Origin: Vibrio neonatus
Lineage (GTDB): Bacteria; Pseudomonadota; Gammaproteobacteria; Enterobacterales; Vibrionaceae
Direction: 5' to 3'
Assembly: GCF_024346975.1 (NCBI RefSeq)
Contig: NZ_AP024885.1
Span: forward strand, 1,798,001 to 1,862,000
DNA length: 64,000 nucleotides
Made by a program: the position numbers and the translations under genes. Below the pieces are notes generated by a model, which saw only the letters and a list, made by a program, of their open reading frames with translations, was not told where the DNA came from and ran no database searches. This document shows positions 47,635 to 64,000 of the stretch, one piece after another. Every line of letters begins with the position of its first letter. Position 1 is the stretch's first letter.

Positions 47635-48797
47635 TATTGTATAACCTTAAAATTATCTTGGCCGAAGATGCCAGTCACGGTGCGGTTAGCTAATGTTTGA
47701 TTCATCTCTTCAAACGTCTGCTCAGGATTTAAATCCTTAAATTGCTTTGGGTAAAACCATTTTGCGAAATACTCTAAGGCCACAAGATTGTATGGCGAGT
47801 TATAAAACGGCATATAGATAGAGTAGACCTGTTTGTTCTGATACGCAGGAGTCGGTCTCATCCAAGTGCGTTGCAATAGCTTATTCGTTGCCGATTTGAT
47901 GGCGTCTTTATTTGGATTATAACCAAGCGGGATCCCCGCTTTCGGATCGCCATTTTTATCCACCCAACCTGTGGTTTGCATAATATAGATATCAGGCTGA
48001 GCAATGATGAGGCTTTCCGCAGACATGTTCCCAGAAAATGCGCCTTTTAAAGGCTTATCCGCAATATTGACCGCCTTTAAAAATGGAACGTAGTCGCCCA
48101 TGTTACCTGCAGAAAATGTTTCGCAGCATGATTCACGTTTACCCGCAGAGCGCTCAATAAATACCTTCTTGTTTAATTCACTGGCAGGCACTTTGGCAAG
48201 ACCGGCTAATAAGTTATCTAAGTGTTTCTGATAGTAAGCTGCAAACTTCTGACCTTGTTCATGACGCCCGACCGCTGTCGCCACACTCGTTACAGACTGC
48301 ACCGTATTTTTAAGTGGGTTTTCACGAAAATCCACCACTAACACTTTAATGCCCGCTCTCTCTAACTTATCAAACAAGCCTTCTTCTTCTGCCAATTTCA
48401 CATTCACGATATCGACAATGAATAGATCTGGCTTGTCCTTCATTTGGATGAAACGCTCAGCATCAAACTCACCCGATTTAATTTTGCCTAATTGCGCTAT
48501 ATTTTTTAGCTTTGGGTAATCTTTAACATAACTGGCATACATGCTCGGCGCAGAAGTACGCATATCATCACGCCACGCCACTAAATGTGCAGCCGCATCT
48601 TGTTGGTAAACGATGTCTAATAGCGGAAAAACTCGACCGGTTGAAATGGCAATATTGTTAGGCTCATGATCGATGGTGATAGTTCGCCCCGCAACATCAG
48701 TGACGGTAACAGGAAACGTATCAGCCAAAGCTGCTGGGGAAGAAAGTAGGCACGCCAAACCAGTGACTAGTAAGCGCATAACAATAGAGTTTTTCAT
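47634..48797 (-). CDS. Iron/siderophore ABC importer, periplasmic binding protein
   Basis: About 387 residues from the ATG at 48797 with a signal peptide (MKNSIVMRLLVTGLACLLSS...ALA) and a class III periplasmic-binding fold (TVTDVAGRTITIDHEPNNIA; ESLIIAQPDIYI). A second ATG four codons earlier is possible. Frame continuing to 48953 lacks signal-peptide sense. It delivers an iron complex to the permease. A candidate Fur box lies 38 bases upstream, so it is likely iron-repressed. Confidence 0.88.
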   Translation of the reverse strand: MKNSIVMRLLVTGLACLLSSPAALADTFPVTVTDVAGRTITIDHEPNNIAISTGRVFPLLDIVYQQDAAAHLVAWRDDMRTSAPSMYASYVKDYPKLKNIAQLGKIKSGEFDAERFIQMKDKPDLFIVDIVNVKLAEEEGLFDKLERAGIKVLVVDFRENPLKNTVQSVTSVATAVGRHEQGQKFAAYYQKHLDNLLAGLAKVPASELNKKVFIERSAGKRESCCETFSAGNMGDYVPFLKAVNIADKPLKGAFSGNMSAESLIIAQPDIYIMQTTGWVDKNGDPKAGIPLGYNPNKDAIKSATNKLLQRTWMRPTPAYQNKQVYSIYMPFYNSPYNLVALEYFAKWFYPKQFKDLNPEQTFEEMNQTLANRTVTGIFGQDNFKVIQ

Positions 48798-48834
48798 AAT
48801 GATTTGCATTCGCCTTGCGGGGTCAGACTGGGAA

Positions 48835-48849
48835 TGATAATCACTTTCA
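48835..48849. promoter_or_regulatory. Candidate Fur box
   Basis: TGATAAT-C-ACTTTCA matches the 7-1-7 Fur consensus TGATAATnATTATCA at 12 of 14 positions. It lies upstream of the three-gene iron importer and no closer to any other gene. Confidence 0.65.
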
Positions 48850-48953
48850 ATAAATTTGTAAACATTTGTAATTATATGATGCAGATCAATCAAAGTTTGC
48901 AGAGTTTTCAACAAATCGGGAGCTAGGCGGTTTTTTGTAAAGAAAAACCGCAT

Positions 48954-49200
48954 CGAATATCACAATAGAACTAAGACTTATATTGCCAACAAACACTTAG
49001 CGCAAAAAGAAATGTAAATTTGCGGTAACACTCACACAACATAAAACCAGATTATTAATCAGTAGCCCACAATATAAATTCTGCTATCGTTGCAAAATCT
49101 AGCTGCAGATCGAATTGCTTAACACTCTCATTTAACCGCAATCCGCACGCTATGGAATAAGCCACTTTTATCACCATATTTATTGTTTAAAGGGAACTCT
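48954..49200 (+). promoter_or_regulatory. Upstream region of the lectin gene
   Basis: About 247 bases without a gene between the divergent importer and lectin genes. AAAGGGAA at 49189 is a clear ribosome site for the lectin. I see no reliable promoter or operator. Confidence 0.4.
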
Positions 49201-49761
49201 ATGAACACTTCCGTTTGCAAAATTTCAGTCTTATCTCTATTTATCTTATTTACTGGACATGCATCAGCAAAAGCGCTCAACATTCCAACACAAGCCCCCT
49301 ACATTGCACTAAGCCAAAACTTAGACGAACCCAACGGATATGGTTTTTGCCTAGATACATTCGGCCGCGGCTATTCAGAACTGATGCACACCCACACCTG
49401 TAAGCCACCATCAAAAGATAAAGACGCGCCAAGAAACAACTCAAGTAATGACGCTCGATTTGAATACGACACCCAAACCAAACAAATCCGTTCTTACGCC
49501 TACGAAAACCAATGTATGCAAGTGCTCTTGGCAACCGGGAAATCAGAATTCGCCCTACTAGAATGTAGCGACCATCCACACCAAAAGTTTGATTACAATA
49601 AAGAAGACAAAACCATCAGGTTGGATGTGGATCAAAACCGCTGTCTATCTATCGACACCAAAACCATTAAAGCAGGGCCTTGGGTTAAGCGTACATTGAA
49701 ACTGACTGAGTGTGATAAAACAGAGGATTCGTTGAAGCAATGGGATGTTGTGGCGAGCTAA
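49201..49761 (+). CDS. Secreted ricin-type beta-trefoil lectin-domain protein
   Basis: About 186 residues with a signal peptide (MNTSVCKISVLSLFILFTGHASA) and a beta-trefoil-like mature region: CLDTFGRGYSELMHTHTCK, QIRSYAYENQCMQVLL and NRCLSIDTKTIKAG. The last two are separated by about 40 residues, as trefoil repeats are. It would bind sugars outside the cell. The ATG at 49201 is chosen over a TTG at 49183. It stands at the edge of the accessory region, in normal-composition DNA. Confidence 0.75.
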   Translation: MNTSVCKISVLSLFILFTGHASAKALNIPTQAPYIALSQNLDEPNGYGFCLDTFGRGYSELMHTHTCKPPSKDKDAPRNNSSNDARFEYDTQTKQIRSYAYENQCMQVLLATGKSEFALLECSDHPHQKFDYNKEDKTIRLDVDQNRCLSIDTKTIKAGPWVKRTLKLTECDKTEDSLKQWDVVAS

Positions 49762-49855
49762 AAGCTTAATAGGATGACTTAGTCTTATAATTGATATTAT
49801 TTTAAACATCTACCTACTACATATTCACAGGTGAGAATTGCTTATTCTTACTTAT

Positions 49856-49902
49856 GATTTGAACAACAACATATACATTAATACTATGTTGTTGTTCAAA
49901 TC
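49856..49902. repeat. 18-bp perfect inverted repeat
   Basis: GATTTGAACAACAACATA (49856-49873) and its exact complement (49885-49902) are separated by 11 bases. No T-run follows on either strand. It lies between the lectin gene and a decayed transposase, so a transposon end or an insertion-related structure is possible. Confidence 0.75.
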
Positions 49903-49972
49903 AGATAAAGGGTCCACTATCCTATGGAACTTATGTTAGTTTCAAATAGGATACCTATCCCTAGAACTTATT

Positions 49973-50222
49973 TCATTGCTTTGATGTTTTTACTAGCACC
50001 TCACCAACTCGAGCATTTAACGTCTCAAGCTCAATGTATCGCTAGTTAACCCTTTATATAGAAACATTACTATCTATGGTAATAACGGCCGTGAGGCTCC
50101 ACAAAAGACTTCAGACCTATTGAATCAATTACTAAATAAGAAGTATAGTCCTAACACGTTACGATTGTAGTTTTGCGTTACCATGTTTCAATAGCAGCGC
50201 CTTCAATCCAAACATCACCATA
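49973..50222 (-). pseudogene. Decayed IS5-like transposase
   Basis: Three broken pieces on the minus strand, in order from right to left. WIEGAAIETW (within 50178-50222) resembles the N-terminal part of IS5-type transposases. VIDSIGLKSFVEPHG (50089-50133) carries the IDSTGLK motif with the first catalytic aspartate. ETLNARVGEVLVKT (within 49973-50041) resembles the C-terminal part. Stops and deletions separate them and the remnant is far shorter than a full gene. The family call is by motif only. Confidence 0.6.
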
Positions 50223-50307
50223 TCTCTACTAAATTAAATAATATCTCAGGACTGAGGAAAGGTTCAATTGATTTAGTTGACAACAGTCGCTACTACATAA
50301 AAGTAAT

Positions 50308-51207
50308 TCATTGAAGAGTAAATGACATAATCAAAAAATTAAAAATGGGAATTAAACCGAAAACACAGCAAGAACAAAGAAATAACCATCCAAAGAAATA
50401 CGATTTACTAAGTCCATATGAAAATAATATTCTAATTGTGTCTCTTGATGATATATTAATAAAATAAACCATGCCTGATGACAAAGCAACAACAATGACA
50501 ATAACAAAGAGTAGAATAATAAACCTAATCTCTTTAACTAATTCATACATTTTGTTTTTTAAAGAATCCAACTCAAATAAATTATAAAATCTTGTAGGGG
50601 TGTAACCATGTAATCTATTGAATTCATTAATATTATTTACAAGATCATAGTTACCCTTCTCTTTCTTAAATAATAAAACAGGAGAACCTACTAACCTAAT
50701 TGAATTATTACAAATCATCATATTTAATGAATCACCATATCTATGGTTAGGGTAAATGATAACGTTATTCATATTAATATTAACTTTATCATTTGAACCC
50801 TTAGCCTTAAAAGAGACATATTTGTAATTTTTAAGTAATGCGAACAAGTTTGCATTCATCATTATTTTCTGGGAATCGGAATTACAATAATAAATTATAG
50901 GTGATATAGAAAAACCATTTGCACCTTCAACAATAATGGCTAGCTTTTCTTTTTGTCTAGAGGCATATAGCCCAACATTAAGTTTAGAGTGTATATTTTC
51001 TATAATATCAAACGACGGACTTGTTAATATTGAAACATAGCCGAACATACTATACTTTTCTAAAGTACTAATTTGATAATCGTTTATTTTAGTTATAATT
51101 GAAATACTTACTAAAGAAATGACAGAAGTAATAAATAAAGAAACAAAAAAGAACATATAACTTTTCCTCTTTTGTTTCAAAATTATTTTAAAAAGTAGCT
51201 TAATCAA
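50308..51207 (-). CDS. Short FtsX/MacB-like ABC permease (last gene of the accessory operon)
   Basis: 299 residues: an N-terminal membrane segment (about 19-41), a soluble region of about 180 residues, then two membrane segments (about 227-250 and 270-292). The short cytoplasmic loop reads RDTIRILFSYGLSKSYFFGW, which resembles the FtsX loop before TM3. A usual FtsX permease has a fourth segment, absent here. It would act with the ATPase encoded at 59286-59924. It overlaps the preceding gene by four bases. A decayed transposase lies just beyond the stop, so truncation by insertion is possible. Confidence 0.65.
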   Translation of the reverse strand: MIKLLFKIILKQKRKSYMFFFVSLFITSVISLVSISIITKINDYQISTLEKYSMFGYVSILTSPSFDIIENIHSKLNVGLYASRQKEKLAIIVEGANGFSISPIIYYCNSDSQKIMMNANLFALLKNYKYVSFKAKGSNDKVNINMNNVIIYPNHRYGDSLNMMICNNSIRLVGSPVLLFKKEKGNYDLVNNINEFNRLHGYTPTRFYNLFELDSLKNKMYELVKEIRFIILLFVIVIVVALSSGMVYFINISSRDTIRILFSYGLSKSYFFGWLFLCSCCVFGLIPIFNFLIMSFTLQ

Positions 51208-52106
51208 AATGATTCAATTTTCTTGCCTAATGAATGACTAAATATGCTTTTTAGAATAGTCCCTGTAGCTCCTGAAATATAGTATGGGTTACGATCCCAA
51301 CGGAACTCAGAGACTTCGCGCTGGGCAACACGAACTTTACCTATTTCAGCTTCATTAAAAAATAGCAGCACATTCATCTCCATAACATACAAAACACCAT
51401 GACGTTTTGGAGTAAAAATTGTACTAAATACGCTATGCAATGGAACTGGTTGAACGTTATTATTATAGTCAACTGGCACAAAGCATTTGTCTAAAGTTGT
51501 TAAACCAGATCCAAGAGTAACGGAAAATTCTTTGCTTTTTCCATACCATCTAGCTTTTTTACCCGTAAAAAATGGATTATTTTGATAAATACTACACACA
51601 TCAATAAAAGCAGAAGTTGCTATTTGTTCAATATTCATAGACGGCTGCAATTTATCTTTCACATCAGATATTTCTAGCATTGAGTCATCAAAATCGATAT
51701 CAGTCCCAACGGGATCGGTACTACTAGTTCCTTGAAGGTTTAGCTTAGACCGCTCAATTTGTTGTGAAGCTATACTAGCTATAGTCATACTAGCTAACTG
51801 AAATATATTCTCACCCCTACGCTCTTGGTCTGCAAATCTAGGATAACTATCAGCGCTGAAACTACGAATATTTGCATTCACTTGTTCTTTCTTCAAAAGT
51901 AATTGCATATTCAATATTTGAGAACTATATCCTTTATGGATAGCAAAACGAGTGCGCTTCAAAGACCTTGCGCTATTGACGCCTTCTTTTAGCACAATCA
52001 TATTAAATGAACCTTGGATTGATGACAAAAATTTAGATATTGTAATATTATTAGATGCGTACGCATTGACATTAAATAATAGAGTCAAAAGCAAAAAGTA
52101 TTTCAT
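51204..52106 (-). CDS. Exported protein of unknown function
   Basis: 300 residues with a signal peptide (MKYFLLLTLLFNVNAYAS). The mature part has KARWYGKSKEFSVTLGSGL and HGVLYVMEMNVLLFF, and ends GTILKSIFSHSLGKKIESF. I recognise no family. Its base composition is visibly richer in G+C than its neighbours: one sampled 60-base stretch (51661-51720) is 40% G+C against 15-28% in sampled stretches of the middle of the operon. It overlaps the permease gene by four bases and lies one base after the lipoprotein gene, so it belongs to the operon. Confidence 0.6.
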   Translation of the reverse strand: MKYFLLLTLLFNVNAYASNNITISKFLSSIQGSFNMIVLKEGVNSARSLKRTRFAIHKGYSSQILNMQLLLKKEQVNANIRSFSADSYPRFADQERRGENIFQLASMTIASIASQQIERSKLNLQGTSSTDPVGTDIDFDDSMLEISDVKDKLQPSMNIEQIATSAFIDVCSIYQNNPFFTGKKARWYGKSKEFSVTLGSGLTTLDKCFVPVDYNNNVQPVPLHSVFSTIFTPKRHGVLYVMEMNVLLFFNEAEIGKVRVAQREVSEFRWDRNPYYISGATGTILKSIFSHSLGKKIESF

Positions 52107-52107
52107 A

Positions 52108-53163
52108 TTAATCTTTATAGCACCTAAATGTAAGCCGTGATGATTTAAAACTATTAAATACTATTCTATATGTTTCAGTAGTCCAATCAAATACCAACAT
52201 GTAATTAGATTGATAATCATCAACTAATTCAAGATAGTCACCTTCTCTAAGAAAAGGCTCATCAACATCGTCTGAATCTAAAGGAGAAATCATTTCTAAC
52301 GTAACACCGCGATTCGGTTTTTTTATCAACTTTTGCTTTCTTGCATTTTCAAAAATATAAGGAGATGATAATTGCATATTATTTCTTAAACAATATTCAT
52401 TTGCTTGCTCGAAACTTACGTTAGTTACTGATAAGTTATTGCTACCTATACCTGAAAAGGATCTTTGACTAACGGGAAATAATTTCAATTTGAATTTTTT
52501 AAATCCAGGTCTATCAGTGTATTTAACAGACACATCGATAAATAAATTACCTTTATCTGTATTGTGTTCAAAATGCGTCTTTGTTGCCAACACTACACCT
52601 TTATTATTAAGTATGCTTACTCTAATCTTGTCCCTATTCCTCTCTTCGGTACCAGACAGAAAAACAATCAAATCTGAAGTTGATACAGGTTCAGAAAAGG
52701 AATTTTTAGATTTAACGTAAAATGGATCTAATTCTCTTGCATTGATTCTATTTATGATTTTCTTTGTTTCAAGAGAACTATCCTGTAAATTAAAGTCTGA
52801 TGAATTAGCAAAATATGCTTTGGCATCATTAAAAATCTGGCTTTTTAGTGAAATAGATCCTGTATAATAAAGGGTTACGTTCAATCTTCCATCTATTTCA
52901 TTGGCCTTATTCAAAGCAATTTGAATAGTATCTGATAATAATAAATCAAAACTGGATTTACTCTTTGAACTTTCAAAATAAAACTTACTATTCTTTGTAT
53001 CAAAAAAATAAGCATCGTATATATCATCACTTGATTTGACTACGTTCGAGGTTTGAAAATCATCATCGAATCTCATATCGAAATCTGATTGAGTCATATA
53101 GGATGAGTTATCTGCACATCCAACAAATAAAGTAGTAAATAACAAATATAATATCGTTTTCAT
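52108..53163 (-). CDS. Lipoprotein with a degenerate FGE-like C-terminal domain
   Basis: 351 residues with a lipobox LFVGC (Cys16). After an unrecognised N-terminal part of about 235 residues, the C-terminus reads NVSFEQANEYC...ENARK and ends TFRCYKD. These match the FGE/SUMF1 (formylglycine-generating-enzyme-like, C-type-lectin-fold) pattern NVSWxDAxxYC and GFRCVRD in the right order. The enzyme's active-site cysteines are not evident, so a binding role is more likely. It overlaps the preceding gene by four bases. The domain call is by motif and moderate. Confidence 0.6.
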   Translation of the reverse strand: MKTILYLLFTTLFVGCADNSSYMTQSDFDMRFDDDFQTSNVVKSSDDIYDAYFFDTKNSKFYFESSKSKSSFDLLLSDTIQIALNKANEIDGRLNVTLYYTGSISLKSQIFNDAKAYFANSSDFNLQDSSLETKKIINRINARELDPFYVKSKNSFSEPVSTSDLIVFLSGTEERNRDKIRVSILNNKGVVLATKTHFEHNTDKGNLFIDVSVKYTDRPGFKKFKLKLFPVSQRSFSGIGSNNLSVTNVSFEQANEYCLRNNMQLSSPYIFENARKQKLIKKPNRGVTLEMISPLDSDDVDEPFLREGDYLELVDDYQSNYMLVFDWTTETYRIVFNSFKSSRLTFRCYKD

Positions 53164-54476
53164 ATTATCAGTATTCCATGTTTTTTCTTGTACTTATCTA
53201 ATATTTCATTATTTCTATCCGTTTCGTCATTCTGCTTTTCTATCAATGAAAATTGTTTATCCAATGGATAGTACATAAACGTGTCGATAAAGTTATTAAC
53301 AAAGTGAAAACTAAATAACTTTTTCCCAGATAATGTAAAATCAATACCCTGATTTACATTATTAACAGTGATTGCAATTGGCGTTCCATTGTTAACGAAA
53401 TACATTTTACGCTGAATGACGCTTTTATTATTCATCCAATAACAATAGTACCACAGACCTTCAATACCATAGTACTTCTCGTCAGTAACGATACTATACT
53501 CGTCATTAATTTTAACCACATTATTTTTAAAGTCGAAATCCCAATTTATTTCTATATTATCACGATCTTTCGATAATTGTCTCAATTGAAAAATTTCATT
53601 AATTGTTTTAGGTACAGCTAAAATACCTAAACTAGAAATATTCTTTGAAGTGACACTTGGATCTAATATTCGTTGATCATATGACATATCTACCATAATT
53701 AGATTATGTCTCTTTCCTGTACGCGTGAACTTCAAATTTATATGCTCACCGATATCATCCACATATATAAATCGAATATAGTTTTTAAATTCAACACTAG
53801 TGACTTCAAGTTTTAAATTAGATTTTAAATCCTTATATCTAGTAGTATACTTATTATGTATATACTCTATTTCGTCTGAATTCAATGATGAATTATAACT
53901 TAAAACAAGACCTTTAAATGTGTTTATTTTTACAGACAAATCCGGTCTATACATTAAATTTTTATCTTTTAAGTTAAACTTCAACATTGAATATAAAACA
54001 TATGACTTTGAATTATACTCATTACCATAGAAATCAAATATATTATGACCTTTAAATACACTTTTAAATATATTTAATTCGTCTCCTACCTTTACAATAT
54101 AATATTTATTATCATTTATATTACCCAGTTCATAGAAGGACGAATATATATTTGAGTCAAGTTTTATTTTAAGAAACTTATCACTATTAATAAGTTTACC
54201 ATTAGATTTTTCGTTGTGTTTATCTAAACCACCTGATGAAATTGAATATTTGGTTTTAACCAATTTTTTCAATTCGACTATAATCCTATTTTTAATATCA
54301 GAATTAATTCTAATGGAGTCTCTTTTGAGTAAACCATTATCATCAAGTTGTAGGTCATGATAACCATAAAGGACAGTAGCGTTACTTAAATTAGTTTCAT
54401 CTATTAATGAAGAACTGATCTCTTGTGCATAAACGAAATGACTGAGAACGACAAGTACAATTAATATTTTATACAT
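53160..54476 (-). CDS. Exported protein of unknown function
   Basis: 438 residues with a signal peptide (MYKILIVLVVLSHFVYAQ) and a mature part rich in Asn, Lys, Tyr and Ile that looks beta-rich, with YYGIEGLWYYCYWMNNKSV and FYxxxxNGTPIAI near the end. I recognise no family. There is no lipobox. It begins four bases after the FGE-like gene and overlaps the next lipoprotein gene by four bases, so it is translated as part of the operon. Confidence 0.6.
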   Translation of the reverse strand: MYKILIVLVVLSHFVYAQEISSSLIDETNLSNATVLYGYHDLQLDDNGLLKRDSIRINSDIKNRIIVELKKLVKTKYSISSGGLDKHNEKSNGKLINSDKFLKIKLDSNIYSSFYELGNINDNKYYIVKVGDELNIFKSVFKGHNIFDFYGNEYNSKSYVLYSMLKFNLKDKNLMYRPDLSVKINTFKGLVLSYNSSLNSDEIEYIHNKYTTRYKDLKSNLKLEVTSVEFKNYIRFIYVDDIGEHINLKFTRTGKRHNLIMVDMSYDQRILDPSVTSKNISSLGILAVPKTINEIFQLRQLSKDRDNIEINWDFDFKNNVVKINDEYSIVTDEKYYGIEGLWYYCYWMNNKSVIQRKMYFVNNGTPIAITVNNVNQGIDFTLSGKKLFSFHFVNNFIDTFMYYPLDKQFSLIEKQNDETDRNNEILDKYKKKHGILII

Positions 54477-54480
54477 CTAT

Positions 54481-55137
54481 TTACCTAACACATCGGAACA
54501 TCAAATTAGAATAACTATTTGATGTTATATTAAAAGTTGCCTTTAAAAAAGGATCTAAATGTGATAAATCATTAATTACGTCACCACCTTTCATTATATT
54601 AGATATAGGTTTATTAGATACCGTACTTGTCATTTCAAAACCATTCCCTAACATCATATTAGAGTCTAACAAAATTTCGTTAACATCTTTATTTCCATGT
54701 AGTGTGATATACCACTCGTTAAAATTATACTTATTAGTTATATACGTATAAAGAATTTCAAACCATTCTTGTTCATTAGGGATTCTCGCATTTAATAAAG
54801 AACAATAGTTCTTTGCGTCTAATAGGCTAATGTTAACCATTGGACTATCTTTATCTATTTTACATATCGCCCTATAGTTATCAAACATGGAAACTCTACC
54901 TACCTTCGATTCTAAAAAGTCATTGCAAGAAACTATATCTGTAAACTTGAACCTAAACTTATTTCTAGCTGGCTTGAATATAAATGAATCTGGTAACATA
55001 TTAAAAGCATTGAAATACTTCACATTTCCGATCTCTCCGTTTATTTCATGCCATTTCATAGCGCTAGCCCATGTCATAGTTGAAAATAATATAAAGCTAA
55101 TAGTCAATAATTTTAACTTTAACATTTTGTTCATCAC
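54481..55137 (-). CDS. Exported protein with a degenerate FGE-like domain
   Basis: 218 residues with a signal peptide ending near residue 26 (TMTWASA). The C-terminal half aligns in order with FGE/SUMF1-type domains: PMVNISLLDAKNYC (99-112) for PVxxVSWxDAxxYC, ARIPNEQEW (117-125) for RLPTEAEWE, GNGFEMTST (164-172) for GNVWEWTSD, MKGGDV (182-187) for RGGSW, and FRCVR at the end. Active-site cysteines are not in place, so it is likely a non-catalytic C-type-lectin-like domain. It overlaps the preceding gene by about 41 bases; an ATG at 55125 is an alternative start. Confidence 0.7.
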   Translation of the reverse strand: MMNKMLKLKLLTISFILFSTMTWASAMKWHEINGEIGNVKYFNAFNMLPDSFIFKPARNKFRFKFTDIVSCNDFLESKVGRVSMFDNYRAICKIDKDSPMVNISLLDAKNYCSLLNARIPNEQEWFEILYTYITNKYNFNEWYITLHGNKDVNEILLDSNMMLGNGFEMTSTVSNKPISNIMKGGDVINDLSHLDPFLKATFNITSNSYSNLMFRCVR

Positions 55138-55915
55138 TCAATATTGATTTTGCTATAAATTTACTATGTAATATCTTATCATTTTGCCTACTATATATTA
55201 CGTAAATAGAGTTATTCTCATTCAAATTAATATATTTAAATTTACCACCTTCAATATTAAGAACATTCTTATTTATACGTTTGATAAAATTGCTATTATT
55301 TTTAAAATATGATAAATATACATTTTGATTAAAGTAAAGTTTTAACTTTTTATTTTCTAAAGATATCTCACTATACAAACACCTATATTTCAAACTATTT
55401 ATTTCAAATAAATAGCTCTTTACTATATCTTTGTCTAGCAGTTCAGAATTCAAAAGTAAATTTTCAGCTCTAGTATAAAACTTATGGTTAATTAATTTAT
55501 TTAGCTTTTTTAAAAACTTATTTCTCTTTCGTATTATACTCATCATATTATTAACTTGTTCTCGTTTTAAAACATATAAGCAATAATATTTTTGTTCATC
55601 TTCACTAGTAGCAAATACTTTTAAGTTTTCAATCGTAATAGAACTTGTTGATTTTATTTCTTCCTGATCTGATCTATAGATCATTCCATTTATATTCTTA
55701 GTAGATGATGATTGAACGATATTTAATTTTTGAGAAAAATATTTGGAAACCTCAGACAAAGCGTTATTACATGAGTTTGATTTATAGTCAGTTTCACTTA
55801 CAACATTCTTATCAGTTATGCCAATAAAACCAAATTCATAAGAATCCCATACCGAAGGGTAATTAGCTAATACAGGCATAGGGACTAGTAATAATAAAAA
55901 TAACATCTTAATCAT
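55097..55915 (-). CDS. Exported protein, possible LPP20/FlgT-like N-terminal domain
   Basis: 272 residues with a signal peptide (MIKMLFLLLLVPMPVLA). The region from about 50 to 125 (ALSEVSKYFSQKLNIV, SSITIENLKVFAT, YYCLYVLKREQV) has the helix-then-strand layout of LPP20/FlgT-N domains, in which the last strand reads like 'YVWVGID'. The rest is Lys/Asn/Leu-rich and unrecognised. It overlaps the preceding gene by eight bases. The domain suggestion is weak but agrees with the LPP20-like lipoprotein at the head of the visible operon. Confidence 0.55.
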   Translation of the reverse strand: MIKMLFLLLLVPMPVLANYPSVWDSYEFGFIGITDKNVVSETDYKSNSCNNALSEVSKYFSQKLNIVQSSSTKNINGMIYRSDQEEIKSTSSITIENLKVFATSEDEQKYYCLYVLKREQVNNMMSIIRKRNKFLKKLNKLINHKFYTRAENLLLNSELLDKDIVKSYLFEINSLKYRCLYSEISLENKKLKLYFNQNVYLSYFKNNSNFIKRINKNVLNIEGGKFKYINLNENNSIYVIYSRQNDKILHSKFIAKSILSDEQNVKVKIIDY

Positions 55916-58445
55916 TTAAAAATCTATCTTTTGTAAAGTCGTAAAGAAAAACTGAGTTAAATGCATCAATTACGATCAAATCATCACTAAGCCAAAATAC
56001 TTTTTTGACTATAGCTTTTTTCGGTAATTTACCTTCTAGAATTATATCATTAGTTGCGATATTTATTATAGAAAATCCATGTTGGTCATAACTAAAAATA
56101 TCTTCACCTACAAAATCAGCTATCATATTACTCTTTATAGTGATATTGACTTCCTTTTTTATCAAATTGTTAAGTGACATTGTATACATTATCCCATTAT
56201 CCACAAAATATAACGAATTATTATACTTATCGAATCCATATGAATTAATGCTGTCTACTTTATTATTATGTAAAATATTACCAGAATTTGCATCCCATAC
56301 TTTAATGAATCTATCTTGAGAAAATGTTACGATTTTATTAGAAATAACTTGTATTTTATTTATTTTATCTTTGTGCCCAATTAATGATTGCGTTTGGTTT
56401 GAATGCTTTACCCATTTAGTAATGTCACCATACTTACTTCCTAAAACAAAAATCTGTCCATTAGTACCCAAAGAAACGTATGACTTGCTCATACATTTCA
56501 ATTTGGCTTTTTTATTAGTAATTATATCTACTTGAATTATACATTTACCATTCAGAATATAAATATCATTCGATATGTTTACAAGATCAATAATATTTGA
56601 TTTATATGGGATTTTTTTAATTATGGATAAATCGAGTTTTCTAATAATTAGATCTTCACCATCATACTCGATAACTCTCTCATTTCCGTTATAAAATTGA
56701 GAATTATATTTATCCTTCAGTTTATTATCCCCCAATATTGACAAGTTCTTCTCAACTGTCTTATAACCGATACCACCCAATTCTAACCTTTCCATACCAT
56801 AATAAGGCATATTTTTATTTAAAGTGATCTCTTTATAGCCTAGAGTATTTTTTCTAATACTATATTTTATATTAAACATAGTATTAGAAAACTCACCAAC
56901 TGATATTAGTACTTTAGGTCGAATTAAGTCCAAATTATTAAATTTTAAAAATTCATCGAACTTTACCTGTTCATTTATTCTAGTTATCAGCTTATAATAT
57001 AATATAATATCTTTATTCGTATAAGGTTCGTAATTAACTCTGACCCTTATATCATCATAAAGGTACCAATCTCGTTTTGATTTATAACTTTCAATAATTT
57101 TTCTATACTTCTTGTTTATATTTTTCACAGAATTGGTACTGGAAATAACTAACATAGCATTAGACGTATACGCTATAAAATCATTATCAATTATTCTTAC
57201 TTTTTGTATGTATTTATCTAAATAATATTGATCTTGCCTAGTATTGATTGATTTTCTATCTTTGCTTTTTTTATCAACAATTGTTATCCACCCATCACTT
57301 GAGTAATCAGCTTTAAATTTATTATTATTTGCACAAGATATGTCAGATACGTCACATTCATCAATAAATTTAATAGATTCATCACCAATTAATTTTAAAC
57401 TATAATCTTTTAAAACGTATTTCCCTTTATTGGTTTTTATATATAGCAAATGATCTAGTACTTTTAACTTCTGAAATGATTCTTTCCATTTATTCGATTT
57501 TAAGACTATTTCTCTGCTATCTATGTCCCTAATACTAACTTTTACTAAAAATTGATTAAAACCATCTTCACTTAAATAATATAACTCATCCCCAACTATT
57601 TCAAAATCTAGAATTTTCCCTTTTCCTTTAATGAAAGTTTTATCATTCAGTGTTGCTATTTTTCTATCTCTATCTGCTTTTATTTCGTTCAAATAATCAA
57701 ATGTATAATAACCATAAGTATATTTTGGATATTTGACAATCATTTTGTCGTTATAATAATACGCATCATTAAATTTAAATGACAAATATTTCTTCACATC
57801 AGATTTAATTGTATAAATAATTTGTTTTACGAATCTGAATTTAATTTCTTTTTCTTTTTCTTTTTCTTTTTCTTTTTCTTTTTCTTTCATTGAACTTAAA
57901 TCAATTATATTCTCATACCAAGAAGTTAATCTAGATTTATCACCATCTTTAATAGATTTAAATCCTTCTAAAATAATTTTATCACTATTAATTGTTTTTA
58001 AATGTAAATATACAATTCTATCTGGATTATCATTTTTTTTATACGATGTTATTATCGAACTAACATAATCCATTGGTTTTGATTTGTTCGCTCTGATTGC
58101 TTTTATCATAGACTGAGTATTTGAATCTTTTGATATATCAATAAAAACATATTTATCCCCAGTATAATAACCATCTCCAGTTAGCTTAAATATTAAATCA
58201 TTATCATTTTTCAATATGTTTATAGCATATTTTAAGAGTTTCGTGTTTTCATCTATTCCAGAGTCAAAATAAATAGTCGTTGTATTTATTCGTGCCGAAT
58301 ACCACTGAGAATAGTTGCTGCTATCAACATTTATTTGGTCTTTTAGATACTGCTTATACGTTGAAGTTACTGATTTTGATGAACATCCAAATAAAATAAT
58401 AAAAAATAAAACAATTATATTCTTCTTATAGCAAAAAATACTCAC
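55908..58445 (-). CDS. Large lipoprotein with a WD40-like repeat
   Basis: 845 residues from a GTG start with a lipobox IILFGC (Cys21). The C-terminal third has a WD40-type repeat (GHKDKINKIQVISNKIVTFS...KVWD, about 680-717), and the middle has many short beta-rich stretches (YYLSEDGFNQFLVKV, LYDDIRVRV), consistent with one or two propellers. Seven Lys-Glu pairs follow Met near residue 186, encoded by seven AAAGAA repeats. It begins four bases after the first permease gene. It is a candidate surface or periplasmic scaffold. No further function can be given. Confidence 0.65.
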   Translation of the reverse strand: MSIFCYKKNIIVLFFIILFGCSSKSVTSTYKQYLKDQINVDSSNYSQWYSARINTTTIYFDSGIDENTKLLKYAINILKNDNDLIFKLTGDGYYTGDKYVFIDISKDSNTQSMIKAIRANKSKPMDYVSSIITSYKKNDNPDRIVYLHLKTINSDKIILEGFKSIKDGDKSRLTSWYENIIDLSSMKEKEKEKEKEKEKEIKFRFVKQIIYTIKSDVKKYLSFKFNDAYYYNDKMIVKYPKYTYGYYTFDYLNEIKADRDRKIATLNDKTFIKGKGKILDFEIVGDELYYLSEDGFNQFLVKVSIRDIDSREIVLKSNKWKESFQKLKVLDHLLYIKTNKGKYVLKDYSLKLIGDESIKFIDECDVSDISCANNNKFKADYSSDGWITIVDKKSKDRKSINTRQDQYYLDKYIQKVRIIDNDFIAYTSNAMLVISSTNSVKNINKKYRKIIESYKSKRDWYLYDDIRVRVNYEPYTNKDIILYYKLITRINEQVKFDEFLKFNNLDLIRPKVLISVGEFSNTMFNIKYSIRKNTLGYKEITLNKNMPYYGMERLELGGIGYKTVEKNLSILGDNKLKDKYNSQFYNGNERVIEYDGEDLIIRKLDLSIIKKIPYKSNIIDLVNISNDIYILNGKCIIQVDIITNKKAKLKCMSKSYVSLGTNGQIFVLGSKYGDITKWVKHSNQTQSLIGHKDKINKIQVISNKIVTFSQDRFIKVWDANSGNILHNNKVDSINSYGFDKYNNSLYFVDNGIMYTMSLNNLIKKEVNITIKSNMIADFVGEDIFSYDQHGFSIINIATNDIILEGKLPKKAIVKKVFWLSDDLIVIDAFNSVFLYDFTKDRFLND
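57846..57887. repeat. Hexanucleotide microsatellite in coding sequence
   Basis: Seven tandem copies of AAAGAA (minus strand), encoding seven Lys-Glu pairs. Unit length is a multiple of three, so slippage would change the number of Lys-Glu pairs without shifting the frame. Confidence 0.95.
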
Positions 58446-58449
58446 TTGT

Positions 58450-59289
58450 CTAATAACCTAACTTAATTAAAATATTAATCTCTTTATTTTTTGACTCAAG
58501 AGTATATAGTATCAATAGCATTAAAAAACCAAATACGCTTACCATAAAGTAAATCGTTATGTATCGTTTTATAGACTCAATAGTAACTAATTCTTCTTTG
58601 TAGATGGGACTAATTTTTGGTTTTTTGAATTTATCACGATCGTCATTTTGCCTATAACTGATCCCGTAAGATAAGATTTTAGAATCAACATTTTTTGATG
58701 TATAAATAATTGGCTCATTCTTATTATCAAAAACAAAAGCAATAACTCGACACTCGATTTTATTAAATAGAATTTTAGAAGATACATTCAATGTCGGATC
58801 TATCAATTTATCTAATGTGTTATTTATAATACAAATACTATCATTATTATTGAAAAGCATCATTAGATTTAAATCATTATACAATATACCTGTTTTATCT
58901 GAATGATAATAACCTATTCTATAATTGTTTATGAAATTTAATGACGTTATATTTAGTGGTAGATTAAATAACTTTATTTGACCTCTATACCCTGTAGTTT
59001 TATGTTCTATATTCGAACGTTCGACTATAATTGAAGTTTTAAGTTTAGATAAACTATAATTAAAATATTCATTATCTAATTTATTTTCGTTTTGAAATTT
59101 ATCTCTGTCATAAACCGATTTAAAGTCTAAGAACTCATATCGCTGCCCATACATAACATTATTTTCAACTTTATCTAACTTATTATTTACTTTTAAAAGT
59201 AAACATACATAAATAATCGTAAAACACAATACAACAATAATTAAAGTGCATAGCTCAGTCTTTATTAATTTATACAAAACAATCTTCAT
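58450..59289 (-). CDS. Short FtsX/MacB-like ABC permease
   Basis: 279 residues: a membrane segment (about 13-34), a soluble region of about 205 residues and one further membrane segment (about 243-264), ending KNKEINILIKLGY. That last stretch is the start of the conserved FtsX cytoplasmic loop (KEIGILRALG), where two further membrane segments should follow. The protein stops there. In the next reading frame RQVSIFCYKKNIIVLFF continues as an FtsX loop and TM3 would, but that stretch is also the signal sequence of the lipoprotein gene. It overlaps the ATPase gene by four bases. Confidence 0.65.
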   Translation of the reverse strand: MKIVLYKLIKTELCTLIIVVLCFTIIYVCLLLKVNNKLDKVENNVMYGQRYEFLDFKSVYDRDKFQNENKLDNEYFNYSLSKLKTSIIVERSNIEHKTTGYRGQIKLFNLPLNITSLNFINNYRIGYYHSDKTGILYNDLNLMMLFNNNDSICIINNTLDKLIDPTLNVSSKILFNKIECRVIAFVFDNKNEPIIYTSKNVDSKILSYGISYRQNDDRDKFKKPKISPIYKEELVTIESIKRYITIYFMVSVFGFLMLLILYTLESKNKEINILIKLGY

Positions 59290-59924
59290 AAAGAAATTAA
59301 TTCATCTGCGATATTAAGTAACCTTTGATCGTGAGATGATAATATTACGCAAGTTCCATTATTTCTTTTATCAATCAATTCTTTTACCAATTTTATACAG
59401 TTCTTATTATCTATGTTCGATGAGGGTTCATCTCCAATTATAAACTCTGAAGAAAATGAAAATGCTCTTGCTATACTTAATCTTTGTTTTTGACCACCTG
59501 AAATTTTGTTAATATTTCCCCCACCAATTACCTCTTCGTTTAACCATTTCCTTAGGACTTTTTCACTATGCTTTATAGCTTCTTTACGTTTAACACCTTG
59601 AATTAATAATGATAATGCACAATTTTCTTCAATCGTTATTTCAGGTATAAGATCAAAATCTTGTGCGATGTACGCTACTTTACGGCATCGATACTCCTTC
59701 ACTTCCTGCCTAGATAATGTACTGAAATTATCGCTATTTAAAAAAATATCTCCGGATGTTGGTCTGCACCTCATAGCAAGTAAATTTAGTAACGTGGTTT
59801 TTCCTACACCAGAAGATCCATTTATGACGTATATTTTTCCTGATTCAAATATAAAAGAAAAGTTATTAATAATCTCTCTTCCGTATCTTTTAAAACATAA
59901 ATTTTTCACTTCTAATCTAGCCAT
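59286..59924 (-). CDS. ABC transporter ATP-binding protein, LolD/MacB type
   Basis: 212 residues with Walker A GSSGVGKTTLL (36-46), Q-loop YIAQDFDLIP, signature KISGGQKQRLSIARAF, Walker B FIIGDEPSSNID and switch His in SSHD, all intact. Length and motifs match the LolD/MacB/FtsE group that partners with FtsX-type permeases, two of which are in this operon. Such systems extract lipoproteins or drive mechanotransmission rather than pump solutes through the membrane. It overlaps the permease gene by four bases and the glycine-rich gene by one. Confidence 0.9.
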   Translation of the reverse strand: MARLEVKNLCFKRYGREIINNFSFIFESGKIYVINGSSGVGKTTLLNLLAMRCRPTSGDIFLNSDNFSTLSRQEVKEYRCRKVAYIAQDFDLIPEITIEENCALSLLIQGVKRKEAIKHSEKVLRKWLNEEVIGGGNINKISGGQKQRLSIARAFSFSSEFIIGDEPSSNIDNKNCIKLVKELIDKRNNGTCVILSSHDQRLLNIADELISL

Positions 59925-61408
59925 CAGTGGTAACTAACCTTTATTGAACCTCTACTTCCAAGATAACCATATGAGCCTGAGACGCCACTAGTGCCATTAT
60001 TACCAGAAGTACCAGAGAAGCCAGAAGGTCCATTATATCCACCAGATCTATATATTGGCGTACATACATTAGATTGGGTATAACTATCATAATAACAATC
60101 ACTACCTTGGTAACTGTTACCACCACGCCCACCTAATCCACCAGGTCCAGGTCCGCCTCCAATACCACCTCGTCCGCTATCTCCATAAACTCCGCCACTC
60201 CCTGGTGATACATTTGCTTCAAAAGAATTCTTAACCAAATAATTGAAATTAGCATCACCCTGGAGAATTCTTACAAAGATCTGTCCTCCATTACCGCCAT
60301 TACCGCCTTTACCGCCATTGCCGCCATCACCGCCATCACCGCCGTCACCACCACTACCACCGGGGCCGCCATTTGTCGCTTCGGAATATTTAGAAGCATC
60401 TCTACCCGAATATCCCGTAGCTCCTTGATGACCTCTTTCTCCATTACCACCATTACCACCGTCTCCCCCTATTCCTCCATTTCCACCAGAAGAAATTATG
60501 GTAGTTGACTGAGACTCCAGGAAGATATGACCGTACACGCCAGTCCCATTTGAACTAACTACTTTCATTCTTTTTAAAGGGCGTTCATAAAATCTAGATT
60601 TTGCTGCTTCAAATACTACACTAACAATAGCTCCGTCTTCTCCAGCATTTCCAGCCTGTCCATTCCAGCCATCACCACCATTACGCCCATTGACATAGGG
60701 TCCTTGTATAAAAGGGGTATAACTAGCACCACTTCTACCATTACTCCCATTCGCACCATTTGAACCAGAAAAATTCAAAGAATATACCCCATTCCACCTA
60801 AAGTCTGGTGCAATTACTGCTTTACCTATAATTTTGTCAATTTTGCCTTCGATCAGATATCCATTATTTAACGCTACTTCTTCATTACCCTTTTCATATA
60901 GCATGTATCCATCCGAATTAACTGTTCCTTTTTGGTTTTTTAATAGAAATGAAAATCCTTTCTTAGGAAAAAAGATACTGTTTTTGTTCCCACTACCGTA
61001 AACCGAAGTAAAATATATTGTGTTTTTGTCTGACACAATAATTCTATGCATCACCCTTTTACTACCCTTATAATAAACTGGTATTGCGATATTTTTTATA
61101 GGATATAATTTTATTTGTTTTAAACTAGAAGCACTTGGTTGCTTCGGATATACCTCAGTCCAAACAAACTTTTTCGAAGTATGCTTTACCGGAATCAACT
61201 GTTTTGTGTTCATGTCTAAAGAAATAGGTCTTTCTGTAGGTACGACTAAAGCTAAATCATTAACTGTATTATTTTTTTGTTCTTTAATTTTAAATGCTAT
61301 AGGTACACCACTATTTACAATACTAACTGTATTACTGCTACTGTATGTTGCAGATAAAGCATAAACAGGAATTTGGGCTATAAATATCAACAGTATCTTT
61401 AACTTCAA
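59924..61408 (-). CDS. Exported glycine-rich protein with GGxGGx tracts
   Basis: 494 residues with a signal peptide (MKLKILLIFIAQIPVYALSA). A non-repetitive part to about 212 is followed by glycine-rich tracts at about 215-256, 308-334, 347-376, 403-430 and 456-487. Several run as GGxGGxGGx. Tracts are followed by short strands of similar type: GAIVSVVFEA, GQIFVRILQG and, at the end, GSIKVSYH. Such regions can form polyglycine-II bundles, seen in phage adhesins and some antifreeze proteins. It overlaps both neighbours, so it belongs to the operon. A surface or adhesive role is inferred. Confidence 0.75.
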   Translation of the reverse strand: MKLKILLIFIAQIPVYALSATYSSSNTVSIVNSGVPIAFKIKEQKNNTVNDLALVVPTERPISLDMNTKQLIPVKHTSKKFVWTEVYPKQPSASSLKQIKLYPIKNIAIPVYYKGSKRVMHRIIVSDKNTIYFTSVYGSGNKNSIFFPKKGFSFLLKNQKGTVNSDGYMLYEKGNEEVALNNGYLIEGKIDKIIGKAVIAPDFRWNGVYSLNFSGSNGANGSNGRSGASYTPFIQGPYVNGRNGGDGWNGQAGNAGEDGAIVSVVFEAAKSRFYERPLKRMKVVSSNGTGVYGHIFLESQSTTIISSGGNGGIGGDGGNGGNGERGHQGATGYSGRDASKYSEATNGGPGGSGGDGGDGGDGGNGGKGGNGGNGGQIFVRILQGDANFNYLVKNSFEANVSPGSGGVYGDSGRGGIGGGPGPGGLGGRGGNSYQGSDCYYDSYTQSNVCTPIYRSGGYNGPSGFSGTSGNNGTSGVSGSYGYLGSRGSIKVSYH

Positions 61409-63309
61409 AGCTGTGCACCTTTTCTTTCAGAAGGAAACTTCAGATATAATTGTTGTAATGCAACGAGACGCGTGTCTTCTGAGTTTGATTTTTTTATGAT
61501 TCTTTTAAGTATTTTCTTCAATATTACCCTATCTTTCTTTGATATCCTTTTATTGTATCTATCTATATAATTTGATATATACAACGGTTCTAGATATGTT
61601 ACCTCTAGTGTATTCCGAAACGCTACTTTATTTATTGTTCCTATGACATACTTCGGTTTGATCATGTTAAGAACACCAAATAATTTCTTGACCTCTTTAC
61701 TGTCATGCATAGAAATACCATAGTTTATATAATTTACATATTTGAATAATTTACTTTTCGGAGTGTTAGAAATTGACAATAGATAGTAGTCAACAGAAAA
61801 TTCATACCCTTTTTGTTTTGGTATATTATTAGCTTTTTTATTTAACCAAGATGCAAACTCTTTTGGGTAATAGTCCACTATAATTGGATAGTTTCTTTCA
61901 ACATAGTCGCTATATTCTGATTTATTAAGTAATAATGTATTAACAAACTGATGTCCAATAGGTATTCTCTTTAATTTTTTCTGAACAATAGAATTCACTT
62001 TATGATTCTTAGATAAGAATATCGAATAGTAATCTTTTAGTTTTATTATTTTTTGTGGTTCTTTTTTCTCTCTATGCGTTAAATAGCGAGCAAATTCAGA
62101 AGGATAATTCATGCTTATATTTTCATATATAAAGTCTATATATTTTTCATTTCTTTTTTCTACTCGAATTCGCAAGTTACTAAATAGATACTTTTTATCG
62201 GAAGCTATTGCCTTAGATATTGTATTATTTCCAAAAACTGCCTTATGATCAATAATGATATTATTTTTATCATCTATAAAAAATAAGGATTTACCATTTA
62301 ACTTTCTATCAAGTACTTTTATTTCCTTTAAATGAGATATCGTTTGTGCTAGAGCATAATCATCTTGAATTATATTATTATGCATTTGATAATAAAATAA
62401 CCCTGGTGCATATTTTAATAATATTGACTGCGCTTTTCTTTCATAAATTTTATATGTAAGTTTATATCCAGTTTTGTTTAGTTTTTCAGGTAGCGACAAA
62501 TCCATCAGTTCTGCTAAATTAGACTGAATTTCTAGTGCACTATCTTCTTTTTTATTTAAGAACATTTGATTAAGTATACGTTCATTCAAATCAAATATAT
62601 ATTCATAATCCGATGTGCTTATTTCATATGAATCTTTGTTTTTAAATAACGAAGTAATTAAACTAAGATCGACAATACTATTCTCCACTTGATTTTTTTC
62701 GTTAATTAAATTTATATCATTTCCAGTGTTGACCTTAGCTAAAGATAGGATAGTTTGTATTTTAAGGTTTTCAGTACTTTTAAAAAAATCTATATTCTTA
62801 TTGATATTTTGTAAAAGCATTTTTTGTACAGCAGGTGAATGTATTTCTTTAATTAAGTTTAAATTAATCGCTAATAAATCCTCATCATTTAACAAATCAA
62901 GTGATTGTGCACTTATCACTCTAAAATATTCTGATCCAAGCTTAGGTTTAAAACCTTGTTCAATCCACTCTTCATCATCAGATGATGTGATACCTTTTCG
63001 TGTAACTAATATTAATTTATCCGTAATTTTTTCATACAAATCGCTATTTTTGTGCTTGATATCAAACGAGTTACATTTATTAACTAATACTGGAATTATT
63101 GATGCTATTAATGAAGGGTTATTTTCTTCATTAATATTCAGGCGTTCATTGGCCCACTCTAATCCATCAATTACATCCTCAAGATTTGTCGCATCAACAA
63201 GACTACTTAACTGACGATTATCAAAATAAGAGTTTATAGCAGAACAACCTATAATCATTAATATCATTACTATTAATGATATTAATGATATTTTTTTAAC
63301 TATTTTCAT
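61405..63309 (-). CDS. Large lipoprotein of unknown function
   Basis: 634 residues with a lipobox MIIGC (Cys22), then mainly helical sequence of the alpha-solenoid kind. An internal repeat is visible: NYPSEFARYLTHREKKEPQK (401-420) and YYPKEFASWLNKKANNIPKQ (480-499), each followed by a DYY segment. No family is recognised. It begins 31 bases after the LPP20-like gene and overlaps the glycine-rich gene by four bases. Its composition is as AT-rich as the middle of the operon. Confidence 0.62.
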   Translation of the reverse strand: MKIVKKISLISLIVMILMIIGCSAINSYFDNRQLSSLVDATNLEDVIDGLEWANERLNINEENNPSLIASIIPVLVNKCNSFDIKHKNSDLYEKITDKLILVTRKGITSSDDEEWIEQGFKPKLGSEYFRVISAQSLDLLNDEDLLAINLNLIKEIHSPAVQKMLLQNINKNIDFFKSTENLKIQTILSLAKVNTGNDINLINEKNQVENSIVDLSLITSLFKNKDSYEISTSDYEYIFDLNERILNQMFLNKKEDSALEIQSNLAELMDLSLPEKLNKTGYKLTYKIYERKAQSILLKYAPGLFYYQMHNNIIQDDYALAQTISHLKEIKVLDRKLNGKSLFFIDDKNNIIIDHKAVFGNNTISKAIASDKKYLFSNLRIRVEKRNEKYIDFIYENISMNYPSEFARYLTHREKKEPQKIIKLKDYYSIFLSKNHKVNSIVQKKLKRIPIGHQFVNTLLLNKSEYSDYVERNYPIIVDYYPKEFASWLNKKANNIPKQKGYEFSVDYYLLSISNTPKSKLFKYVNYINYGISMHDSKEVKKLFGVLNMIKPKYVIGTINKVAFRNTLEVTYLEPLYISNYIDRYNKRISKKDRVILKKILKRIIKKSNSEDTRLVALQQLYLKFPSERKGAQL

Positions 63310-63340
63310 ATTTAGGAAAGCTTAAGGTCTAATTCTTCAA

Positions 63341-63967
63341 CTACTTTGAACTTTTTAGTTCGCTAATTTCTTTCAACATTTCATCATGTGCTTTTTTTGC
63401 TTCAACTTTTTGCCAAAGAGCTTCTTCATTATTCATACTTGTACGAATTGCTTTCTGTTGGTTCGCTAGTAAGTTTTTCTCATCAATCCCAACCCACACA
63501 TATACTTTTCCTGAAGGAGCAACGATTTTTCGAATAACCTTTGAACCAATAATTTCTTCGTCTGATAATGAACGACTAACACTCGAAGCGACAGCGTCTA
63601 TTGCTAATTGATCTGCACTTCCTGTTTGCTCTATATAGCTCTTAACTAGTGCTGATACTTGCGCCCTAATCTGTTGAGCTAATTGTACTCTCGCAGCTAA
63701 AGATGCTTGAGAAACCATAAAATTCATTCCGGCTGCAGATTTATTATAAGACCCACGAGCTGCTAAACTGTACCCATCTATTTGATCTGTACACACAAAC
63801 TCTGGTGCTTCCGTTACCCCATCATCATATTTACACCAACCTTGCTCTTTTGAAGCAGCTGCTTTTGAATCTGCTAATGTTTTTTCCGCATCAGAACTTG
63901 AGCAACCAACTAAAAGTACAGTAAGCAGCGAAAGCATGCACATTTGGACTTTTCTACTTTTATTCAT
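63341..63967 (-). CDS. LPP20-family lipoprotein
   Basis: 208 residues with a lipobox VLLVGC (Cys22). The mature part has YSLAARGSYNKSAAGMNFMVSQ, AARVQLAQQIRAQVSALV and KVYVWVGIDEKNL, the helix-strand layout of LPP20-type lipoproteins that form ring-like or flagellar-basal-body-associated assemblies in other bacteria. A charged helix ends it. AGGATTTACAA precedes the ATG. It is the first gene of the operon in the window; 33 bases remain to the right edge, so more genes may lie upstream. One sampled 60-base stretch (63661-63720) is 43% G+C. Confidence 0.78.
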   Translation of the reverse strand: MNKSRKVQMCMLSLLTVLLVGCSSSDAEKTLADSKAAASKEQGWCKYDDGVTEAPEFVCTDQIDGYSLAARGSYNKSAAGMNFMVSQASLAARVQLAQQIRAQVSALVKSYIEQTGSADQLAIDAVASSVSRSLSDEEIIGSKVIRKIVAPSGKVYVWVGIDEKNLLANQQKAIRTSMNNEEALWQKVEAKKAHDEMLKEISELKSSK

Positions 63968-64000
63968 TTGTAAATCCTAGATTAAAATTCTTACTATTTG

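Follow-up and report, generated by a model that had tools for sequence, protein, structure and literature searches.

Vibrio neonatus carries a tightly packed operon of twelve genes (50308-63967, minus strand), which may encode a rare trans-envelope machine with a Type VII ATP-binding cassette (ABC) core resembling MacB, LolCDE and FtsEX. The operon lies in a window of 64,000 nucleotides, bases 1798001-1862000 of contig 1 (NZ_AP024885.1, 2.75 Mb) in the two-contig genome of 3.84 Mb (GCF_024346975.1). Support for the architecture is fair; the function is an inference. An ABC ATPase and a pair of FtsX-like permeases probably drive an outer-membrane assembly that consists of lipoproteins and FGE-like hubs. 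A glycine-rich protein is a possible, somewhat doubtful client, and the whole reading, this client included, is offered tentatively.

A preliminary description had listed twelve closely spaced genes on one strand, and all twelve open reading frames (ORFs) were recovered on the minus strand with the same coordinates. They fill 99.7% of 50308-63967. Neighboring genes are spaced by -41 to +31 bases: the largest gap is 31 bases, and the other genes overlap or lie 1-31 bases apart. The deepest overlap (41 bases) depends on the start codons as listed. The products measure 208-845 amino acids (aa); in 50 mononucleotide shuffles, no stop-to-stop run exceeded 146 codons. In transcription order, genes 1-6 encode an LPP20-like lipoprotein, a 634-aa lipoprotein, the glycine-rich protein, the ABC ATPase, the permease FtsX1 and a propeller lipoprotein. 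Genes 7-12 follow with an LPP20-like protein, an FGE-like protein, a 438-aa protein, an FGE-like lipoprotein, a 300-aa protein and the permease FtsX2. Rfam gave no match within 49000-64000 of the window, and the counts of promoters and terminators were close to the shuffle expectation.

The gene order recurs outside the genus. Gene 11 (51204-52106, minus strand), an exported protein of 300 aa, served as marker. A search of 5.8 billion database proteins yielded five relatives sharing 40-43% identity with it, one of them from Aliivibrio kagoshimensis. Alignment against genome contigs located two loci, in Marinomonas sp. MED121 and Marinomonas sp. SBI8L. MED121 holds 11 of the 12 genes in the order of the window; nine are contiguous from the ATPase to FtsX2, with the homologs of the glycine-rich protein and gene 2 directly upstream. 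In SBI8L, the order is kept for all nine genes visible in the fetched stretch, which covers the locus from the ATPase onward. Identities between the window and Marinomonas range from 16% (FtsX2) to 42% (gene 11, the best conserved of the set). The ratio of nonsynonymous to synonymous substitution rates (dN/dS) between MED121 and SBI8L was 0.05-0.24 in eight of nine genes and not computable for the ATPase; dS is near saturation, so that these values are rough. They indicate purifying selection on the block within Marinomonas. The conserved order bears out the earlier proposal of a coherent, unnamed ABC/FtsX envelope system.

The ATPase (gene 4, 59286-59924, minus strand, 212 aa) matches the ABC transporter family PF00005 (2e-27). 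The closest solved structures to a three-sequence ATPase profile are LolD chains (5e-55), and BceA and MacB match too. Walker A, signature and Walker B motifs, read by eye in the alignment, are all intact. The protein fails the models of the named families: LolD (TIGR02211, 128.7 bits, cut-off 307.75), FtsE (TIGR02673, 135.3 bits, cut-off 264.85) and MacB (97.9 bits, cut-off 966). The model of the lactococcin-972-type exporters (TIGR03608) is the top NCBIfam match, yet it also fails (147.8 bits, cut-off 254.85). The ATPase and FtsX1 (gene 5, 58450-59289) are separate ORFs, without a MacB-style fusion. By sequence the ATPase clearly belongs to the LolD/FtsE/MacB type (LolD/MacB-type in the preliminary description), and judged by model scores the operon is neither LolCDE, FtsEX nor MacAB. 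A dedicated LolCDE-like exporter, extracting and sorting the operon's own lipoproteins, would fit the nearness to LolD among solved structures and the four lipoproteins encoded alongside the ATPase. It is quite improbable given the wide miss of the LolD cut-off. The lipoproteins of the window carry an ordinary Ser or Ala after the lipobox cysteine, and such lipoproteins should be served by the housekeeping Lol system. Pfam and NCBIfam name no LolA-like or LolB-like product of the operon.

Two short FtsX-like permeases had been proposed, FtsX1 and FtsX2 (gene 12, 50308-51207, minus strand). An FtsX-like layout was found; the Pfam family FtsX (PF02687) matches neither window permease. Its scores for the FtsX2 homologs of MED121 (21.8 bits) and SBI8L (16.9 bits) stay under the cut-off of 25.5, and FtsX1 gave no match in the window, MED121 or SBI8L. 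Between the profiles of FtsX1 and FtsX2 there is hardly any match, and no solved permease appeared among the structure matches of the FtsX2 profile. The permease assignment stands on weaker ground than that of the ATPase and refers to an FtsX-like layout only. FtsX2 has three hydrophobic segments in the window, MED121 and SBI8L alike. Of FtsX1, the two Marinomonas homologs have four such segments, the first of them followed by a large loop, and the window protein has two. Permeases of Type VII ABC transporters have four transmembrane helices, the first two being separated by a large periplasmic domain. The window protein consists of a first transmembrane helix (TM1), a periplasmic domain, TM2 and a motif resembling a coupling helix, directly followed by the stop; TM3 and TM4 of the Marinomonas proteins are absent. 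The motif after TM2 reads NILIKLGY in the window and NILYMTGY in Marinomonas, and the alignment of the window protein ends there. The major coupling helix of MacB lies between TM2 and TM3; ATP binding drives it against TM2, and TM3 and TM4 pack outside (PMC5985334). By analogy, the motif in FtsX1 would occupy the position of this helix. The shortened permease may keep the force path, because the MacB helix acts on TM2 and TM3-TM4 are peripheral.

With two membrane helices fewer in FtsX1 than in Marinomonas, the window copy may be reduced or decaying. Gene 7 is likewise shortened by about 200 residues relative to its Marinomonas homologs, all 11 shared proteins are shorter than in MED121 (starts as listed), and the GC content of the twelve genes is only 0.23-0.39. 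Decay or reduction, in the window, of a system that works in Marinomonas is nevertheless a somewhat unlikely explanation, and one compatible with the trans-envelope machine. Across 13.7 kb of AT-rich DNA none of the twelve ORFs is interrupted, the motifs of the ATPase are preserved, and FtsX1 retains TM1, TM2 and the coupling motif, the force-transmitting parts in MacB (PMC5985334).

Export signals were recognized in nine of the twelve products, a lipobox in four and a plain signal peptide in five, in agreement with the preliminary description. The signal peptides were assigned by eye. Ser or Ala follows the cysteine in all four lipobox products, which is typical of outer-membrane lipoproteins. 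The lipobox pattern is only indicative, because it also matches three SBI8L homologs of proteins that are not lipoproteins and, in the window FtsX1, a site inside membrane helix 1. Gene 3 (59924-61408, minus strand) encodes the candidate client, an exported protein of 494 aa with an N-terminal domain of about 200 aa followed by Gly-X-X and Gly-Gly-X repeats. Glycine accounts for 29% of residues 211-494. The N-terminal part (residues 20-210) shares 57 of 191 residues with the MED121 homolog. The Pfam family Collagen scores under its cut-off (19.6 vs. 27.2 bits).

Two products have an FGE-like appearance. The 218-aa exported protein of gene 8 (54481-55137, minus strand) matches PF03781 with 30.9 bits (cut-off 23.3), and its MED121 and SBI8L homologs do so with 80.2 and 57.6 bits. 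FGE active-site cysteines follow a GG motif. The stretch that separates the KGG motif from the terminal FRC is free of cysteine in all three homologs. Gene 10 (52108-53163, minus strand) encodes a 351-aa lipoprotein (FVGC-A) with a C-terminal part that appears degenerate FGE-like. The proposal of two degenerate FGE-like domains thus holds for the 218-aa protein; Pfam, FGE included, is silent on the 351-aa protein and on its MED121 homolog. The gene 10 and gene 8 families are linked by a weak profile match (hhalign E 1.7e-4, probability 50%). Gene 10 shares 35% identity with its Marinomonas homologs and, with a dN/dS of 0.08 within that genus, is among the two most constrained genes.

The 845-aa lipoprotein of gene 6 (55908-58445, minus strand, LFGC-S) had been called WD40-like. 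The propeller is clear in its MED121 homolog (PF00400, 4.3e-21); in the window the best Pfam match is weak (5e-7, under the cut-off). The lipobox is present in the window, MED121 and SBI8L. Gene 2 (61405-63309, minus strand) encodes a 634-aa lipoprotein (IIGC-S) of unknown family. It has no Pfam match and aligns with a 654-aa MED121 homolog at 27% identity (E 5e-78), in which a lipobox is found too. An imperfect 36-bp palindrome lies within this gene (63254-63289; self-match on the opposite strand, 94%).

One LPP20-like product had been reported. Two proteins match this family (PF02169, cut-off 25.9), both under the threshold: the 208-aa lipoprotein of gene 1 (63341-63967, minus strand, LVGC-S) with 24.6 bits and the 272-aa exported protein of gene 7 (55097-55915, minus strand) with 16.8 bits. 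The Marinomonas homologs of gene 7 comprise 480 and 484 aa, and the one of MED121 has a sub-threshold match to DUF4384 (PF14326, 18.2 bits). Gene 1 seems to be an accessory: it is missing from the MED121 operon, where no copy lies upstream of the gene 2 homolog, and its MED121 homolog (38% identity) is located on another contig (G329:C5:491177). Gene 9 (53160-54476, minus strand) encodes an exported protein of 438 aa and unknown family. It shares 21% identity with Marinomonas homologs of 533 and 520 aa, and the conservation is highest towards the C terminus. A structure model of the MED121 homolog of gene 11 loosely resembles domains of the TolB-N, FlgT, PelC and CsgG type. Searches of solved structures with the families of genes 2, 10, 11 and 12 yielded no useful match.

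The operon set is rare in the sequence collections searched. A gene 11 profile was present in one of 329 genomes of the window's family and in one of 369 genomes sampled from its class, in both cases its own genome. In the family and the order of MED121, it was present in one of 48 and one of 390 genomes, each time MED121 itself. Gene 9 alone was found in one of 247 genomes of the window's family. An eight-sequence gene 11 profile retrieved 28 proteins from the 5.8-billion database, the window's own included. Those with names belong to A. kagoshimensis, Marinomonas sp. S3726 and MED121; most others are marked by source alone (ena, lgn, jgi) and probably come from metagenomes. Searches seeded by words or with a loose first pass can miss distant members. 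Gene 2 alone retrieved only itself in a protein search in which the 7999 best-sharing candidates were scored, and its MED121 homolog was obtained only by a whole-genome search. Absence in word-based searches is weak evidence, because this homolog was missed. The neighborhood comparison that had been suggested thus shows recurrence in Marinomonas; the window's own family is poor in the marker, and A. kagoshimensis was found through the protein database.

The composition of the block differs from its surroundings. GC content drops across it from about 0.43 to 0.25-0.36. At third codon positions (GC3), all twelve genes have 0.20-0.29, vs. 0.35-0.48 in seven flanking genes, and for this reason the block looks foreign. 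Gene 1 (GC3 0.23) resembles the rest and would have arrived with the block or from a similar donor. The operon was apparently acquired by the bacterium and has probably spread horizontally. An origin from phages or plasmids was considered and rejected: phage and plasmid searches gave no match for gene 2, plasmid searches none for the MED121 homolog of gene 11, and PHROGs none for genes 2, 3, 9, 10 and 11. For the gene 11 family, 54 pattern matches in viral contigs contained no confirmed relative. No integrase was recognized within the block. A repeat search of window positions 47001-64000, a span that ends before the nearby tRNA, revealed no tRNA-end duplication.

The operon had been thought to continue past the right edge, which it does not. 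Beyond 63967, about 920 bp contain no ORF of at least 80 aa on the same strand, followed by tRNA-Arg(tct) (about 64889-64965) and folD. The same tRNA stands beside folD in all four relatives whose folD regions were fetched. In these relatives, the four genes that lie left of the operon are all missing from the 15-16 kb fetched at folD. Scanning of nine ORFs in the fetched regions revealed OLD-like and nSTAND3 ATPases in one relative and HipA in another. Of the other two, one has chorismate synthase adjoining the tRNA, and the other has only a helicase match just under the cut-off. The four relatives thus differ in what they carry at the tRNA-Arg(tct)/folD site, and no integrase or attachment repeat that would prove an integration was found. 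The defence-like genes and HipA at this site would suit island cargo for competition or defence, a very improbable reading of the operon. All products except the ATPase are membrane or exported proteins, unlike those of most known defence systems, and the MED121 block is located at a different place. A PADLOC scan of nine MED121 homologs and gene 1, with the ATPase and the propeller protein outside the scan, gave one weak match (9e-5, PDC-M67A).

On the left side, a gene for a ricin-type beta-trefoil lectin, probably secreted (49183-49761, plus strand; PF00652, 34.8 bits, above the cut-off), is located about 550 bp from the operon end. It is probably outside the block, because its GC3 of 0.44 resembles the flanks. 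Between lectin gene and operon end lies a perfect inverted repeat, 19 nt long with a loop of 11 nt (49855-49903). Further left, three coupled genes (45806-48953) resemble by sequence an ABC importer of the iron/siderophore or cobalamin type, comprising ATPase, permease and binding protein. For the third gene, matches at 28-29% identity were obtained to plasmid genes that bear the annotation substrate-binding protein.

For the trans-envelope machine, the following mechanism is proposed. Type VII ABC systems act in the periplasm, and what defines them is their partner proteins (PMC12646458). An ATPase dimer would sit beneath an FtsX1-FtsX2 heterodimer. ATP binding would push the coupling helices and thereby move a periplasmic stalk, as in MacB, and no substrate would be carried across the inner membrane by the ABC core. 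The periplasmic heads would act on an outer-membrane assembly held by the propeller, 634-aa and FGE-like lipoproteins, with the dead FGE domains as docking hubs, as in PorK. In the weakest step, the glycine-rich protein would be brought to the cell surface or assembled there. It is taken as the client because it is encoded beside the ATPase and is the only Gly-repeat protein in the block. Its placement is ranked above lipoprotein sorting. In its most specific form, the proposal is an undescribed gammaproteobacterial machine for secretion or surface assembly. Its Type VII ABC engine, in place of a proton motor, would drive an outer-membrane assembly of dead FGE domains and a beta-propeller lipoprotein and so place the glycine-rich protein on the surface, the window version having an FtsX1 cut to TM1, TM2 and the coupling helix. 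All these details together are rather unlikely to be right.

An envelope sensor similar to TagQRST would use the same parts differently. Outer-membrane lipoproteins and the periplasmic FGE-like protein would detect envelope damage and signal via the ABC complex to an output other than the type VI secretion system (T6SS). TagR reportedly carries an FGE-like domain. In kind, the parts correspond to the outer-membrane lipoprotein TagQ, the periplasmic TagR and the TagS/TagT ABC complex (PMC6657622, PMC11881912). Such a sensor is unlikely: the genome of the window has no match to the T6SS sheath protein VipB, no kinase lies beside the operon, the two Pkinase matches of the genome being elsewhere, and nine exported proteins are many for this purpose. 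Beside the Marinomonas operon, a 610-aa Ser/Thr kinase-like protein is encoded (L006:12128-13960, L007:11996-13831), near genes for branched-chain-type dehydrogenases. Four marker-less genomes of the family encode this kinase too (74-80% identity), which speaks against its belonging to a sensor; in the one genome that was read, the same dehydrogenase gene adjoins it. VipB has three matches in MED121, none of them on the contig of the operon. A role in T6SS regulation, raised by the TagQRST likeness and the neighboring kinase, was rejected for the genome of the window on the lack of a VipB match and the kinase in the four marker-less genomes.

The trans-envelope machine brings together components known from separate settings: an ATPase of the mechanotransmission type, dead FGE domains, a lipoprotein with a propeller and a protein with glycine-rich repeats. 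Literature searches, limited to open-licence papers, found no description of the set. Should the shortened FtsX1 work, it would provide a direct test of the need for TM3 and TM4 in mechanotransmission. By analogy, the closest working layout is that of TagQRST, the regulator of the H1-T6SS in Pseudomonas aeruginosa, in which an inner-membrane ATPase and permease are co-encoded with an outer-membrane lipoprotein and a periplasmic partner (PMC6657622). The operon differs by two permeases, more exported proteins, the propeller lipoprotein and the glycine-rich protein, and the defining links of TagQRST to the T6SS and to a PpkA-type kinase fail. In the type IX secretion system (T9SS) and gliding machinery of Bacteroidota, the docking hub of the PorKN ring and the GldK-GldJ track is an FGE-like fold that is anchored at the outer membrane and lacks the active-site cysteines. 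Genes 8 and 10 would resemble these proteins in kind only. The T9SS motor, PorLM, runs on proton motive force, unlike the candidate engine here, an ABC ATPase. Pfam and NCBIfam scans, which covered the operon products, name neither PorLM nor Sov.

LolCDE combines a LolD-type ATPase with two FtsX-type permeases, as the operon probably does; the operon differs by an ATPase far under the LolD cut-off, by more exported partners and by an FtsX2 profile without a solved permease match. MacAB-TolC would share the Type VII topology and, probably, mechanotransmission. In the operon, ATPase and permease are separate genes, and Pfam and NCBIfam name no product as a MacA-like adaptor or a TolC-like protein. 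FtsEX also has a small ATPase separate from the permease and works in the periplasm. The operon departs from it by an ATPase under the FtsE cut-off and by two different permeases. If the glycine-rich protein is exported as proposed, an ATP-driven route to the surface would exist that is unlike all systems compared here. Identification of partner proteins can reveal uncharacterised Type VII ABC systems (PMC12646458). Among such systems, the operon appears to be new in its many unnamed exported partners, which are encoded in strict order.

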